From Saccoglossus kowalevskii (Eukaryota > Hemichordata > Enteropneusta > Harrimaniidae): DNA of 61,167 nucleotides. The translations under genes and the position numbers were made by a program. Below, piece by piece: positions 1 through 61,167 of this stretch (position 1 is its first letter; each line of letters opens with the position of its first letter). The notes under the pieces were generated by a model that was not told the origin of the DNA, searched no databases, and saw only the letters and a program-made list of their open reading frames with translations. The stretch is from NCBI RefSeq assembly GCF_000003605.2, contig NW_003109063.1, positions 1 to 61,167 on the forward strand, written 5' to 3'.

Positions 1-15
1 ATACTGTAGAATGTC

Positions 16-87
16 AGCAGCGTTGCGCAGCGGAAGCGTGCTGGGCCCATAACCCAGAGGTCCCTGGATCGAAACCAGGCGCTGCTA
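16..87 (+). tRNA. tRNA-iMet-CAT: initiator tRNA-Met (CAT), unit 0
   Basis: Full length; anticodon 48-50. One change, G9T, just before the D stem. Its unit is cut by the window start. Confidence 0.9.
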
Positions 88-281
88 TGAATTTGAAGTT
101 TTTAACCGTTAATTCTCAAACAACCTGTTGCTGCGAGTTATGTGCCTTAAAAGTTTGCTTTATTAATCCGGAACATTCGTGATTCGCAATCTGCCAAGCG
201 TAACAAATTATGAATGACGAGTAAGTAGGTTGGCAATAACAATAATTATTAACTGGCGCAAAATTTGAGTTGCAAGTAACT

Positions 282-394
282 GTCAGGATGGCCGAGCGGT
301 CTAAGGATTTGACACCTTGCCCTTATTTCAGGGTTATTTATGGGAGATTTCTGGTCCACGAATGTGGGCGTGGGTTCGAATCCCACTTCTGACA
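282..394 (+). pseudogene. tRNA-Leu pseudogene, 14-nt deletion, unit 0
   Basis: The D arm runs directly into the intron (ctaag-gattt). Fourteen nucleotides spanning the 5' anticodon stem and the CAA anticodon itself are gone. T arm, variable arm and B box are intact, so it might still be transcribed but cannot make tRNA-Leu. Unit 23 has the identical deletion. Confidence 0.92.
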
Positions 395-604
395 ATGTTA
401 TTTTACCTTTAGTAACTTAGCAAATTCTCGCCTAGTTTGTGCTCGATATGACATTTAATTATCTTCGTGTTTAGTCGTGATTCAACATTGACAGTAGTTT
501 CGTTTAGTTTCAATTTACAAATACTGAACCGAGATTACGCATTATATTTCATGACATTTACGATAAACTGGACTATTCATACAAGTTGCATATTGAAGAA
601 TGTC

Positions 605-655
605 AGCAGCGTGGCGCAGCGGAATCGTGCTGGGCCCATAACCCAGAGGTCCCTG
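605..655 (+). pseudogene. Truncated initiator tRNA-Met, unit 1
   Basis: Positions 1-51 are present, including the CAT anticodon, then the sequence jumps into the spacer. About 104 bp are lost: T arm, B box, 3' acceptor strand, terminator and part of the spacer. It carries G21T and reads 'ccctga' at the break, like the variant family in units 10, 43 and 69, its likely parent. Same break in units 24 and 77. Confidence 0.93.
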
Positions 656-766
656 AAACATTAGTGATTCGCAATCTGCCAAGCGTAACAAATTATGAAT
701 GACTAGTAAGTAGGTTGGCAATAACAATAATTATTAACTGGCGCAAAATTTGAGTTGCAAGTAACT

Positions 767-893
767 GTCAGGATGGCCGAGCGGTCTAAGGCGCCAGACT
801 CAAGGATTTGATACCTTGCCCTTATTTCAGGGTTATTTGTGGGAGATTTCTGGTCCACGAATGTGGGCGTGGGTTCGAATCCCACTTCTGACA
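767..893 (+). tRNA. tRNA-Leu-CAA: tRNA-Leu (CAA), unit 1
   Basis: Exons match consensus; intron 805-847 with two substitutions (gataccttg and ttgtggg). Confidence 0.93.
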
Positions 894-1110
894 ATGTTAT
901 TTTACCTTTAGTAACTTAGCAAATTCTCGCCTAGTTTGTGCTCGATATGACATTTAATTATCTTCGTGTTTAGTCGTGATTCAACATTGACAGTAGTTTC
1001 GTTTAGTTTCAATTTACAAATACTGAACCGAGATTACGCATTATATTTCATGACATTTACGATAAACTGGACTATTCATACAAGTTGCATATTGCAGAAT
1101 GTCAGCAGCG

Positions 1111-1121
1111 TGGCGCAGCGG
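1111..1121 (+). promoter_or_regulatory. A box of initiator tRNA-Met
   Basis: TGGCGCAGCGG at tRNA positions 8-18 fits the internal Pol III A box (TRGYNNANNNG). It lies at tRNA start +7 to +17 in each copy. Units 9, 58, 71, 73 (C11T, G15T), 20, 34 (G15T), 63 (G18C) and 78 (C11A) carry changes inside it. Confidence 0.9.
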
Positions 1122-1153
1122 AAGCGTGCTGGGCCCATAACCCAGAGGTCCCT

Positions 1154-1164
1154 GGATCGAAACC
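1154..1164 (+). promoter_or_regulatory. B box of initiator tRNA-Met
   Basis: GGATCGAAACC is the initiator form of the TFIIIC-binding B box (GGTTCGANTCC in most tRNAs), at tRNA positions 51-61. The truncated copies (units 1, 24, 77) lack it and should not recruit TFIIIC normally. Confidence 0.9.
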
Positions 1165-1186
1165 AGGCGCTGCTATGAAATTGAAG

Positions 1187-1190
1187 TTTT
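1187..1190 (+). terminator. Short (TTTT) Pol III terminator of tRNA-Met
   Basis: Four T residues 12 bp after the discriminator base. This short form occurs in units 2, 12, 13, 17, 23, 26, 30, 31, 42, 46, 49, 50, 53, 61, 76, 79 and 99. Four Ts is the usual minimum for metazoan Pol III. Confidence 0.8.
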
Positions 1191-1329
1191 AAACCGTTAA
1201 TTTTCGAACAACCTGTTGCTCCGAGTTATGTGCCTTAAAAGTTTGCTTTATTAATCCGGAACATTCGTGATTCGCAATCTGCCAAGCGTAACAAATTATG
1301 AATGACGAGTAAGTAGGTTGGCAATAACA

Positions 1330-1339
1330 ATAATTATTA
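1330..1339 (+). promoter_or_regulatory. A/T-rich TATA-like element upstream of tRNA-Leu
   Basis: ATAATTATTA sits 40 to 31 bp before tRNA-Leu in this and nearly every unit. The position suits an upstream TATA-like aid to TFIIIB placement, but that role is inferred from position and composition only. Confidence 0.4.
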
Positions 1340-1376
1340 ACTGGCGCAAAATTTGAGTTGCAAGTAACTGTCAGGA

Positions 1377-58743: not shown

Positions 58744-58936
58744 TGAAATAGAAGTTTTTAACCGTAATTCTCAAACAACCTGTTGCTGCGAGTTATGTGC
58801 CTTAAAAGTTTGCTTTATTCATCCGGAACATTCGTGATTCGCAATCTGCCAAGCGTAACAAATTATGAATGACGAGTAAGTAGGTTGGCAATAACAATAA
58901 TTATTAACTGGCGCAAAATTTGAGTTGCAAGTAACT

Positions 58937-59063
58937 GTCAGGATGGCCGAGCGGTCTAAGGCGCCAGAATCAAGGATTTGATACCTTGCCCTTATTTCAG
59001 GGTTATTTATGGGAGATTTCTGGTCCACGAATGTGGGCGTGGGTTCGAATCCTACTTCTGACA
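58937..59063 (+). tRNA. tRNA-Leu-CAA: tRNA-Leu (CAA), unit 98
   Basis: C32A removes the C32-intron pair; T stem cctac; intron 58975-59017 with gatacc. Confidence 0.82.
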
Positions 59064-59272
59064 ATGTTATTTTACCTTTAGTAACTTAGCAAATTCTCGC
59101 CTAGTTTGTGCTCGATATGACATTTAATTATCTTCGTGTTTAGTCGTGATTCAACATTGACAGTAGTTTCGTTTAGTTTCAATTTACAAATACTGAACCG
59201 AGATTACGCATTATATTTCATGACATTTACGATAAACTGGACTATTCATACAAGTTGCATATGCAGAATGTC

Positions 59273-59344
59273 AGCAGCGTGGCGCAGCGGAAGCGTGCTG
59301 GGCCCAAAACCCAGAGGTCCCTGGGTCGAAACCAGGCGCTGCTA
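59273..59344 (+). tRNA. initiator-type tRNA with CAA anticodon, unit 99
   Basis: T35A changes the anticodon at 59305-59307 to CAA, the same as the neighbouring tRNA-Leu, in an otherwise well-paired initiator body. A53G alters the T loop's first base. It would read UUG if charged. Short terminator. Confidence 0.8.
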
Positions 59345-59538
59345 TGAAATTGAAGTTTTAAACCGTTAATTCTCGAACAACCTGTTGCTCCGAGTTATGT
59401 GCCTTAAAAGTTTGCTTTATTAATCCGGAGCATTCGTGATTCGCAATCTGCCAAGCGTAACAAATTATGAATGACGAGTAAGTAGGTTGGCAATAACAAT
59501 AATTATTAACTGGCGCAAAATTTGAGTTGGAAGTAACT

Positions 59539-59665
59539 GTCAGGATGGCCGAGCGGTCTAAGGCGCCAGACTCAAGGATTTGATACCTTGCCCTTATTTC
59601 AGGGTTATTTATGGGAGATTTTTGGTCCACGAATGTGGGCGTGGGTTCGAATCCCACTTCTGACA
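59539..59665 (+). tRNA. tRNA-Leu-CAA: tRNA-Leu (CAA), unit 99
   Basis: C40T (G:T pair in the anticodon stem); intron 59577-59619 with gatacc. Confidence 0.91.
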
Positions 59666-59875
59666 ATGTTATTTTACCTTTAGTAACTTAGCAAATTCTC
59701 GCCTAGTTTGTGCTCGATATGACATTTAATTATCTTCGTGTTTAGTCGTGATTCAACATTGACAGTAGTTTCGTTTAGTTTCAATTTACAAATACTGAAC
59801 CGAGATTACGCATTATATTTCATGACATTTACGATAAACTGGACTATTCATACAAGTTGCATATTGCAGAATGTC

Positions 59876-59947
59876 AGCAGCGTGGCGCAGCGGAAGCGTG
59901 CTGGGCCCATAACCCAGAGGTCCCTGGATCAAAACCAGGCGCTGCTA
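59876..59947 (+). tRNA. tRNA-iMet-CAT: initiator tRNA-Met (CAT), unit 100
   Basis: Anticodon 59908-59910; G56A in the T loop. Confidence 0.88.
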
Positions 59948-60141
59948 TGAAATTGAAGTTTTTAACCGTTAATTCTCAAACAACCTGTTGCTGCGAGTTA
60001 TGTGCCTTAAAAGTTTGCTTTATTCATCCGGAACATCCGTGATTCGCAAAATGCCAAGCGTAACAAATTATAAATGACGAGTAAGTAGGTTGGCAATAAC
60101 AATAATTATTAACTGGCGCAAAATTTGAGTTGCAAGTAACT

Positions 60142-60268
60142 GTCAGGATGGCCGAGCGGTCTAAGGCGCCAGACTCAATGATTTGACACCTTGCCCTTAT
60201 TTCAGGTTTATTTATGGGAGATTTCTGGTCCACGAATGTGGGCGTGGGTTCGAATCCTCCTTCTGACA
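60142..60268 (+). tRNA. tRNA-Leu-CAA: tRNA-Leu (CAA), unit 100
   Basis: G37T beside the anticodon, T stem cctcc (a mismatch and a G:T); intron 60180-60222 (aggttta). Confidence 0.72.
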
Positions 60269-60478
60269 AGGTTATTTTACCTTTAGTGACTTAGCAAATT
60301 CTCGCCTAGTTTGTGCTCGATATGACATTTAGTTTTCTTCGTGTTTAGTCGTGATTCGACATTGACAGTAGATTCGTTTAGTTTCAATTTACAAATTCTG
60401 AACCGAGATTACGCATTATATTTCGTGACATTTACGATAAACTGGACTATTCATACAAGTTGCATATTGCAGAATGTC

Positions 60479-60550
60479 AGCGGCGTGGCGCAACGGAAGC
60501 GTGCTGAGCCCATAACCCAGAGGTCCCTGGATTGAAACCAGGCGCTGCTA
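60479..60550 (+). tRNA. tRNA-iMet-CAT: initiator tRNA-Met (CAT), unit 101
   Basis: Anticodon 60511-60513; A4G (G:T), G15A, G29A (breaks the G:C triplet) and C55T: four changes. Confidence 0.72.
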
Positions 60551-60744
60551 TGAAATTCAAGTTTTTAACCGTTAATTCTCAAACAACCTGTTGCTGCGAG
60601 TTATGTGCCTTAAAAGTTTGCTTTATTCATCCGGAACATTCGTGATTCGCAATCTGCCAAGCGTAACAAATTAAGAATGACGAGTAAGTAGTTTGGCAAT
60701 AACAATAATTATTAACTGGCGCAAAATTTGAGTTGTAAGTAACT

Positions 60745-60871
60745 GTCAGGATGGCCGAGCGGTCTAAGGTGCCAGACTCAAGGATTTGACACCTTGCCCT
60801 TATTTCAGGGTTATTTATGGGAGATTTCTGGACCACGAATGTTGGCGTGGGTTCGAATCCCACTTCTGACA
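60745..60871 (+). tRNA. tRNA-Leu-CAA: tRNA-Leu (CAA), unit 101
   Basis: D-stem (aaggtgcc) and variable-arm changes (ggaccac, gttggc); intron 60783-60825. Confidence 0.84.
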
Positions 60872-61081
60872 ATGTTATTTTACCTTTAGTTACTTAGCAA
60901 ATTCTCGCCTAGTTTGTGCTCGATATGACATTTAATTATCTTCGTGTTTAGTTGTGATTCAACATTGACAGTAGTTTCGTTCAGTTTCAATTTACAAATA
61001 CTGAACCAAGATTACGCATTATATTTCATGACATTTATGATTAACTGGACTATTCATACAAGTTGCATATTGGAGAATGGC

Positions 61082-61152
61082 AGCAGCGTGGCGCAGCGGA
61101 AGCGTGCTGTCTCATAACCCAGAGGTCTCTGGATCGAAACCAGGCGCAGCTA
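61082..61152 (+). tRNA. tRNA-iMet-CAT: initiator tRNA-Met (CAT), 1 nt short, unit 102
   Basis: Anticodon 61113-61115. The anticodon stem reads ctgtctcat (one base lost, G:C triplet broken), C48T, and T68A opens an acceptor pair. The terminator run begins at the window end (tttt, 61164-61167). Confidence 0.6.
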
Positions 61153-61167
61153 TGAAATTCAAGTTTT

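Follow-up and report, generated by a model that had tools for sequence, protein, structure and literature searches.

Organization of the array

The stretch of acorn worm (Saccoglossus kowalevskii) DNA analysed here, hereafter the window, is 61,167 b in length (1..61167) and makes up the whole of contig C341. The mitochondrial contig of the assembly points to a hemichordate; with both rRNAs and 15 Rfam tRNA matches on it, compared to two tRNAs in Hydractinia mtDNA, Hydractinia was rejected as the source. The results showed that it is a single head-to-tail array of an initiator tRNA-Met gene and an intron-bearing tRNA-Leu(CAA) gene in units of about 603 b, with all units on the + strand. There are 103 Met copies, 100 of them at at least 95% of full length and three truncated, and 102 Leu copies. 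Of the 99 intervals between full Met copies, 51 measure exactly 603 b, as do 58 of the 101 between Leu copies; the modal array period is 603 b. The first-pass annotation, which had described an uninterrupted paired array of more than 61 kb with about 103 and 102 copies and a 603-bp period, was thus borne out by the counts, and it had identified both genes correctly. Rfam gave 184 matches above the gathering score in the window, and all of the 150 matches listed were tRNA; ARAGORN called 84 genes, every one at a Met position, and did not call the intron-bearing Leu genes. As both ends of the window lie inside the array, 61 kb is a lower bound on the array length.

A representative unit of 603 b (1104..1706, + strand) begins with the 72-b initiator tRNA-Met gene (1104..1175; Rfam, 56.9 bits, and ARAGORN), followed by a T4 run (1187..1190) that is likely a Pol III terminator and lies in the 194-b spacer 1 between Met and Leu (1176..1369). 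The 5′ exon (1370..1407) and 3′ exon (1451..1496) of tRNA-Leu(CAA), both matched by Rfam, flank a 43-nt intron (1408..1450) that interrupts the gene just behind the first nucleotide 3′ of the anticodon, the exon/intron limits having been placed by eye using anticodon-stem pairing. A second T4 run and likely Pol III terminator (1503..1506) lies in the 210-b spacer 2, which leads from Leu to the next Met (1497..1706) and varies less than any other part of the unit, at 0.0098 substitutions per site. Short tandem repeats were not found in the spacers, Tandem Repeats Finder returning only three rows, with period 499–500. In a short unit of 499 b (605..1103, + strand), a 104-b segment reaching from within the Met gene into spacer 1 is missing; there are comparable short units at 14325 and 46170, and in all three places 51 of the 72 nt of the Met gene are left.

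Mean pairwise identity of the units is 97.4%. No higher-order repeats were found in the window when a run was defined as at least three consecutive unit pairs, at any lag, each with at most four differences.

Occurrence of the unit elsewhere in the assembly

A 40-mer from the spacer detected 222 units across the assembly, 96 of them in the window and 0 in reverse; a search of the genome gave 242 matches, and its reversed-pattern control 0. The same Met/Leu unit is carried by contig C3681 (80,859 b), as seen in the 26,000 b at its start and the 2.3 kb at its end, and the perfect Met matches among those listed for this contig extend from 71 to about 37 kb. Contig C183 represents a degraded edge of the array, with pieces at 81–99% identity. 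An attempt to join the right end of the window to this edge failed, the last two units sharing 6 of 36 non-consensus bases compared to 173 of 1217 for the other 143 units. No shared unit runs indicating that the window overlaps C3681 were found in the first 26,000 of that contig's 80,859 b.

If the copy number had been inflated by the assembler, both window ends might be expected to fall within the array, as they do. Six units (starting at 2913, 11929, 15429, 34725, 41952 and 47272) each contain three to seven short deletions or inserted bases, resembling poorly polished long reads, and the C3681 unit at 665 shows zero substitution differences from the window unit at 13736, which would also fit such inflation. 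However, no run of three or more near-identical unit pairs was present within the window, nor in a comparison of the window with the first 26 kb of C3681, and the same assembly contains several other arrays. A mean identity of 97.4% without runs of duplicated units makes duplication by the assembler very improbable.

Isolated copies and other Pol III arrays

The 72-b initiator gene occurs with 100% identity on contigs C3574 and C848 and in two of the three copies read on C2143, in surroundings that do not match the spacers of the window array. On C2143 it is part of a repeat of about 1.9 kb that also holds Asn(GTT), while C3574 and C285 each carry a single initiator gene, that on C285 differing from the array type at 4 of 72 positions. 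Tandem Leu(CAA) genes are found on C690 with a period of about 673 b, and the 3,001 b covered there hold no Met; the C690 unit shows 76% identity to the window unit over 302 columns covering the Leu gene and its downstream flank. A single Leu(CAA) gene on C3162 differs from the array type by one exon base, and a single Arg gene on C3484 differs from the arrayed Arg type by two bases (5 and 68). Thus the isolated Met on C285, Leu on C3162 and Arg on C3484 differ from their arrayed counterparts, whereas the Met on C3574 is identical; 1.5 to 10 kb was read at each of these four loci, those on C3484 and C3574 being partly N.

Further tRNA arrays on the sampled contigs comprise Arg(TCG), Cys(GCA), Thr(TGT) and Trp(CCA), so that several isotypes (Arg, Cys, Thr, Trp, Leu without Met, and Asn with Met) form separate arrays in one genome. 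Among 63 RF00005 matches scored out of 25,204 candidates, 62 lie on contigs whose sampled parts proved to be arrayed. The 5S rRNA genes are also arrayed, on C3485 (about 1.14 kb) and on C2212 and C3801 (about 1.58 kb), with 47 matches scored out of 18,217 candidates.

The first-pass annotation had offered dosage as one possible reason for the two genes being locked at 1:1. A cellular need for matched amounts of the initiator and the UUG-reading tRNA would agree with the ratio of 103 to 102 in the array, but amplification of one compound unit gives 1:1 automatically, and both genes are also found apart, in other arrays and singly. In addition, the C690 unit aligns through Leu and its flank, with no Met in the 3,001 b covered, so the Met–Leu pair looks like a historical junction; given that several Pol III genes are arrayed in this genome, the pair needs no special reason. 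The dosage explanation of the pairing is therefore not supported, and we consider it extremely improbable.

Sequence variation and the state of the genes

Internal promoter elements are a feature of any tRNA gene, and each 603-b unit would comprise two independent transcription units, one for initiator tRNA-Met and one for intron-bearing tRNA-Leu(CAA), each with such elements and a T-run terminator of its own. Downstream of Met, a run of at least four T within 30 b was present in all 99 copies tested (excluding the three truncated copies and the last copy, which is cut by the window end), and in 82 of these it was T5 or more. Downstream of Leu, such a run was present in 98 of 102 copies, and T5 in none.

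Many copies are damaged. Of the 103 Met genes, 37 match the reference copy exactly, as do 33 of the 102 Leu genes; both Leu exons are perfect in 45 of 102, and both genes in 18 of 102 units. ARAGORN reported a changed anticodon in five Met copies (three CGT, one AAT and one CAA). The anticodon alignment shows TAC in the Met of unit 41349, but this copy was left out of the count because the change may stem from the alignment or from an indel. In the Leu genes of units 16 and 13736, a 14-b deletion has removed one base of the anticodon column.

Singleton changes numbered 94 in 20,151 cells of the genes (Leu intron included) compared to 132 in 40,890 cells of the spacers (odds ratio 1.45, p=0.007; 1.30 after base correction). 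A density in genes no lower than in spacers suggests that single copies are unconstrained. Variants shared by at least five copies stood to singletons as 10:93 in the mature tRNA and 35:139 in the spacers (odds ratio 0.43, p=0.028). Common variants are thus scarce within the mature tRNA, pointing to working genes, although this is only suggestive because linked variants were taken as independent and three thresholds were used (p 0.028, 0.044 and 0.018). No footprint of CpG methylation was found in the array units, transitions at CpG occurring at 0.0083 per cell compared to 0.0097 at other C/G and the unit having a CpG observed/expected ratio of 1.09; this is a weak point, since five non-array or edge loci gave ratios of 0.88 to 1.19.

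The array could instead be a satellite that is silent for the most part and contains Pol III genes by chance, with the initiator and Leu(CAA) tRNAs of the cell supplied by the dispersed genes on C285, C3574, C848 and C3162. The singleton density and the damaged copies fit this, as do the longer T-runs of the dispersed Met genes (T7 on C3574, T11 on C285). A tandem Ser/Tyr tRNA cluster in Arabidopsis is reported to be silent in most tissues (PMC12308677), and in zebrafish 60% of the predicted tRNA genes are reported from chromosome 4, which is largely heterochromatic (PMC11574265). Nearly all T-runs of the array are intact, however, and the scarcity of common variants in the mature tRNA and, weakly, the missing methylation footprint also speak against silence, which we regard as unlikely. 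The first-pass annotation had posed a dosage need and a satellite carrying Pol III genes as alternatives. The two are not exclusive: the mutation load is satellite-like, while terminators and frequency spectrum suggest working genes.

We consider it probable, at roughly three in four, that the window is part of a large working Pol III gene array whose copies are kept alike by concerted evolution. The array genes would be transcribed, unequal exchange and gene conversion would hold the copies alike, and single copies could decay freely while an ensemble of intact copies supplies the tRNA. Homogenization probably keeps the units similar, but neighbouring units differ at 15.1 positions compared to 15.8 for any two, which is hardly more alike, so the units bear no direct mark of recent exchange between neighbours. 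The array would thus be a Pol III gene family in which single copies appear free to decay and common within-gene variants are scarce.

Comparison with known systems

By analogy with Xenopus and zebrafish, the array may be used at times of high translation, for example in oocytes and early embryos. A two-part Pol III set, in which the soma would rely on dispersed isodecoders whereas oocytes and early embryos would draw on the arrayed tRNA and 5S genes, is a speculative extension that we think doubtful; if true, the maternal/somatic Pol III split seen in zebrafish and Xenopus would predate vertebrates. The four-base difference between the array initiator and the C285 copy would allow tRNA sequencing to reveal which of the two sets is in use in embryos or adults. 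In the open-licence literature, as judged by titles and the starts of abstracts, no earlier report of tandem tRNA arrays in hemichordates was found.

The Xenopus tRNA unit is about 3.2 kb long and holds about eight tRNA genes, and the acorn worm unit differs from it. Xenopus, the precedent named in the first-pass annotation, holds good as a deuterostome with tandemly arrayed, oocyte-specific Pol III tRNA genes, and an initiator Met gene served as the test plasmid in the study concerned; modified cytosine is reported for the Xenopus arrays (PMC11500080), whereas the acorn worm array shows no methylation footprint. Tandem tRNA repeats are also known beyond Xenopus, in Hydractinia, Nematostella, zebrafish and human 1q23.3. 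In zebrafish, maternal tRNA and 5S clusters lie largely on chromosome 4, and Leu-CAA is among those that switch isodecoder during development (PMC11417395, PMC11574265). Highly repetitive tRNA clusters alongside isolated copies of other isodecoders are common to both animals, but one isolated acorn worm initiator, on C3574, does not differ from the array type at any base, and stage-specific use is what is reported for zebrafish.

The human 1q23.3 tRNA VNTR is likewise a tandem tRNA repeat, with units about 98% alike, but its 7.3-kb unit, present in 9–43 copies, contains CTCF sites as well as five tRNA genes that are distributed over both strands (PMC4041453). In Entamoeba, as in the acorn worm, there are many distinct array units, each containing at most a few tRNA genes and some including 5S; in contrast, its spacers contain short tandem repeats, which the acorn worm spacers lack, and almost all its tRNA genes are arrayed, whereas the acorn worm has the single genes on C285, C3574, C3162 and C3484 (PMC2652664). 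There is a close likeness to Hydractinia and Nematostella, in which tandem ncRNA arrays include many tRNA isotypes, 5S and also U1, U2, U5, U6 and U3 (Schnitzler et al., 2024; PMC11067881): the arrays share even spacing, head-to-tail order and tens to hundreds of near-identical units with near-identical spacers, and in the acorn worm assembly, too, several isotypes are separately arrayed and 5S rRNA is arrayed. Those hosts are cnidarians, whereas the window comes from a hemichordate. The acorn worm array is therefore an additional case of a kind already known in a few other animals, and it adds the hemichordates to the animals with large tandem tRNA arrays.

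Anatomy of the repeated unit

Searching the window with a one-unit query showed 103 tRNA-Met and 102 tRNA-Leu(CAA) copies, every one on the forward strand. Exactly 603 bases was the commonest gap both from Met to Met (51 of the 99 gaps between the 100 full-length copies) and from Leu to Leu (58 of 101), bearing out the first-pass annotation of about 103 initiator and 102 Leu(CAA) loci with a 603-bp period. Each unit comprises a 72-base tRNA-Met gene, a 194-base spacer (spacer 1), a 127-base tRNA-Leu(CAA) gene including a 43-nt intron, and a 210-base spacer (spacer 2; unit positions 394–603). 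The intron, with limits set by eye, starts past the base 3′ of the anticodon. From its likeness to vertebrate initiators, we take the Met gene to be of the initiator type.

Rfam gave 184 matches above the gathering score, tRNA being the only family among the matches listed (150 of 184), and ARAGORN in default mode called 84 genes, at Met positions only. ARAGORN also reported altered anticodons at five Met positions, namely three CGT, one AAT and one CAA (window 28091, 28693, 49656, 47867 and 59273); these copies could mis-decode, if transcribed. Four or more consecutive T lay within 30 bases downstream in all 99 Met copies tested (at least five T in 82), with the three truncated copies and a fourth that runs off the end of the window left out, and in 98 of the 102 Leu copies (at least five T in none), a pattern that fits two separate Pol III genes.

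The three cut Met copies retain 51 of 72 bases, and the unit around each is short, at about 499 bases. A 104-base deletion starting inside Met characterizes three window units (605–1103, 14325–14824 and 46170–46668), and units of 499–500 bases were also present on C3681, a second contig with the same array. This recurrence suggests that a broken unit was duplicated or relocated within the array.

Extent of the array and the possibility of assembly duplication

The window takes up contig C341 in full. The assembly searched comprised 4,830 contigs and 572,110,611 bases, and places outside the array are known from the first 100 or so matches listed per genome search. A spacer 40-mer (at most three mismatches) occurred 222 times in the genome, 96 of these in the window, and its reverse was not found. 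For a Met 38-mer the genome-wide count was 242, including 93 in the window, and for a Leu 38-mer 238, including 89 in the window, each with zero matches to its reversed-pattern control. On C3681 (80,859 bases), the array unit ran throughout the stretches read, the first 26,000 bases (43 units) and the last 2.3 kb, and perfect Met copies extended to at least about 37 kb among the matches listed. A third contig, C183, begins with 1,156 N and carries one whole degraded unit flanked by two partial ones (pieces 81–99% identical); there the array stops abruptly at non-array DNA, marking one array edge. Shared variants gave no link between the right end of the window and C183.

The array is probably not a copy made by the assembler. 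Window units differed on average by 15.8 bases (97.4% identity). Stretches of at least three successive unit pairs with four or fewer differences were absent at every lag, both inside the window and when the window was compared with the first 26,000 bases of C3681. Isolated pairs separated by 0 to 3 differences exist. Six units bear 3 to 7 short indels each and look like unpolished long reads.

Variation among units suggests weak selection on the ensemble

Among 102 aligned units, the Met gene was perfect in 37, both Leu exons in 45 and both genes in 18. Singletons were at least as frequent per cell in genes, Leu intron included (94/20,151), as in spacers (132/40,890; odds ratio 1.45, p = 0.007; 1.30 after base correction), and individual copies look free to mutate. 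The variant spectrum was tested on 145 units (102 from the window and 43 from C3681). The result showed that the ratio of variants in at least five copies to singletons was 10:93 in mature tRNA and 35:139 in spacers (odds ratio 0.43, p = 0.028), with p = 0.044 and 0.018 when the cut-off was raised to 8 and to 10 copies, all these p-values being optimistic owing to linkage of spacer variants. Since common variants are scarce in mature tRNA and singletons are not, we interpret the spectrum as a sign of weak selection acting on the copies as a group, with broken ones appearing but not taking over. Substitutions in spacer 2, which precedes Met, were about half those in spacer 1, which precedes Leu (0.0098 vs 0.0196 per site).

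A germline methylation footprint was also sought in the array, and no trace was found, because CpG transitions were not in excess (0.0083 per cell against 0.0097 at other C/G sites), although five other sampled loci likewise gave CpG ratios of 0.88 to 1.19, which makes this a weak point. The window holds a large, genuine Pol III gene array, which is probably functional.

The two genes also occur apart

The first-pass annotation had taken the 1:1 locking of initiator to Leu(CAA) to suggest either a dosage need or a satellite that happens to carry Pol III genes. A dosage reason is not supported, as both genes also occur separately and the ratio follows from amplification of one compound unit. 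Two single initiator Met genes are present: the C285 gene departs from the array type at 4 of 72 bases, and the C3574 gene matches it exactly. An identical and a truncated Met copy lie on C848, and a single Leu(CAA) with one different exon base on C3162. A Leu(CAA) array with a period of about 673 bases occupies C690, Met being absent from the 3,001 bases of it read. On C2143 (L039, C2143:1500-7500), Asn(GTT) and initiator Met share a repeat about 1,907 bases long. The C2143 repeat also has fragments resembling tRNA, assigned to Ser(ACT) and Pro(TGG), their stretches about 74% alike, which may be tRNA-derived repeats.

Sampled contig stretches further revealed arrays of Arg(TCG) (C237, C1937, C3006), Cys(GCA) (C926, C682, C4368; L013, L014, L019), Thr(TGT) (C4103) and Trp(CCA) (C4826). 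The Cys arrays share a basic period of about 237 bases, some gaps being longer. 5S rRNA arrays were present on C3485 (about 1.14 kb) and on C2212 and C3801 (about 1.58 kb). Between one copy of each 5S kind, two of 119 positions (111 and 119) differed; the position-111 change is missing from the first C2212 copy and, by bit score, may be missing from the first C3801 copy. In a genome holding other arrays and unpaired copies, the Met/Leu(CAA) pairing is nothing special.

The C690 and window units aligned at 76% over 302 columns covering the Leu gene and its downstream flank, and the C690 unit contains a second, partial Leu copy. These features suggest that the compound unit probably arose when a Leu unit was joined to a Met gene, the direction of the event being inferred.

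The mitochondrial contig

Contig C4830 (17,037 bases) is mitochondrial, with nad5 adjoining cob, both rRNAs and 15 Rfam tRNA matches. It has a TGA within cox1, cox1 on the opposite strand and nad2 ahead of nad1, gene names being by eye except for cox1, recognized with Pfam PF00115, and nad1, recognized by its match to complex I chains of solved structure. In the nad1 reading every Lys codon was AAA, and several of these align with Lys. Published accounts describe nd5-cob adjacency in two hemichordates (PMC2697986) and, for Saccoglossus kowalevskii, AAA read as Lys and, relative to Balanoglossus mtDNA, an inverted COX1 and a transposed ND1 or ND2 (PMC3121625). These features therefore mark the genome as that of a hemichordate, in all likelihood S. 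kowalevskii.

Comparison with known tRNA arrays

Zebrafish reportedly draw their bona fide maternal tRNAs from highly repetitive regions and their later tRNAs from isolated genes, Leu-CAA belonging to the switching sets (PMC11417395). By analogy, an arrayed maternal set and a dispersed somatic set might already be present in a hemichordate; we consider this unlikely, and the identity of the isolated C3574 initiator to the array type counts against a clean split. Tandem tRNA genes in Xenopus are described as oocyte-specific (PMC11500080), and an Arabidopsis Ser/Tyr array as active in root tips and silent in most tissues (PMC12308677). No prior report of hemichordate tRNA arrays was found among the open-licence papers listed. 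Tandem arrays of tRNA and other ncRNA are reported in Hydractinia and Nematostella (PMC11067881), and a 74-genome survey reports high tRNA clustering in Nematostella and some fishes (PMC2888827). The array in the window is of the same kind as these known animal tandem tRNA arrays, here in a hemichordate.
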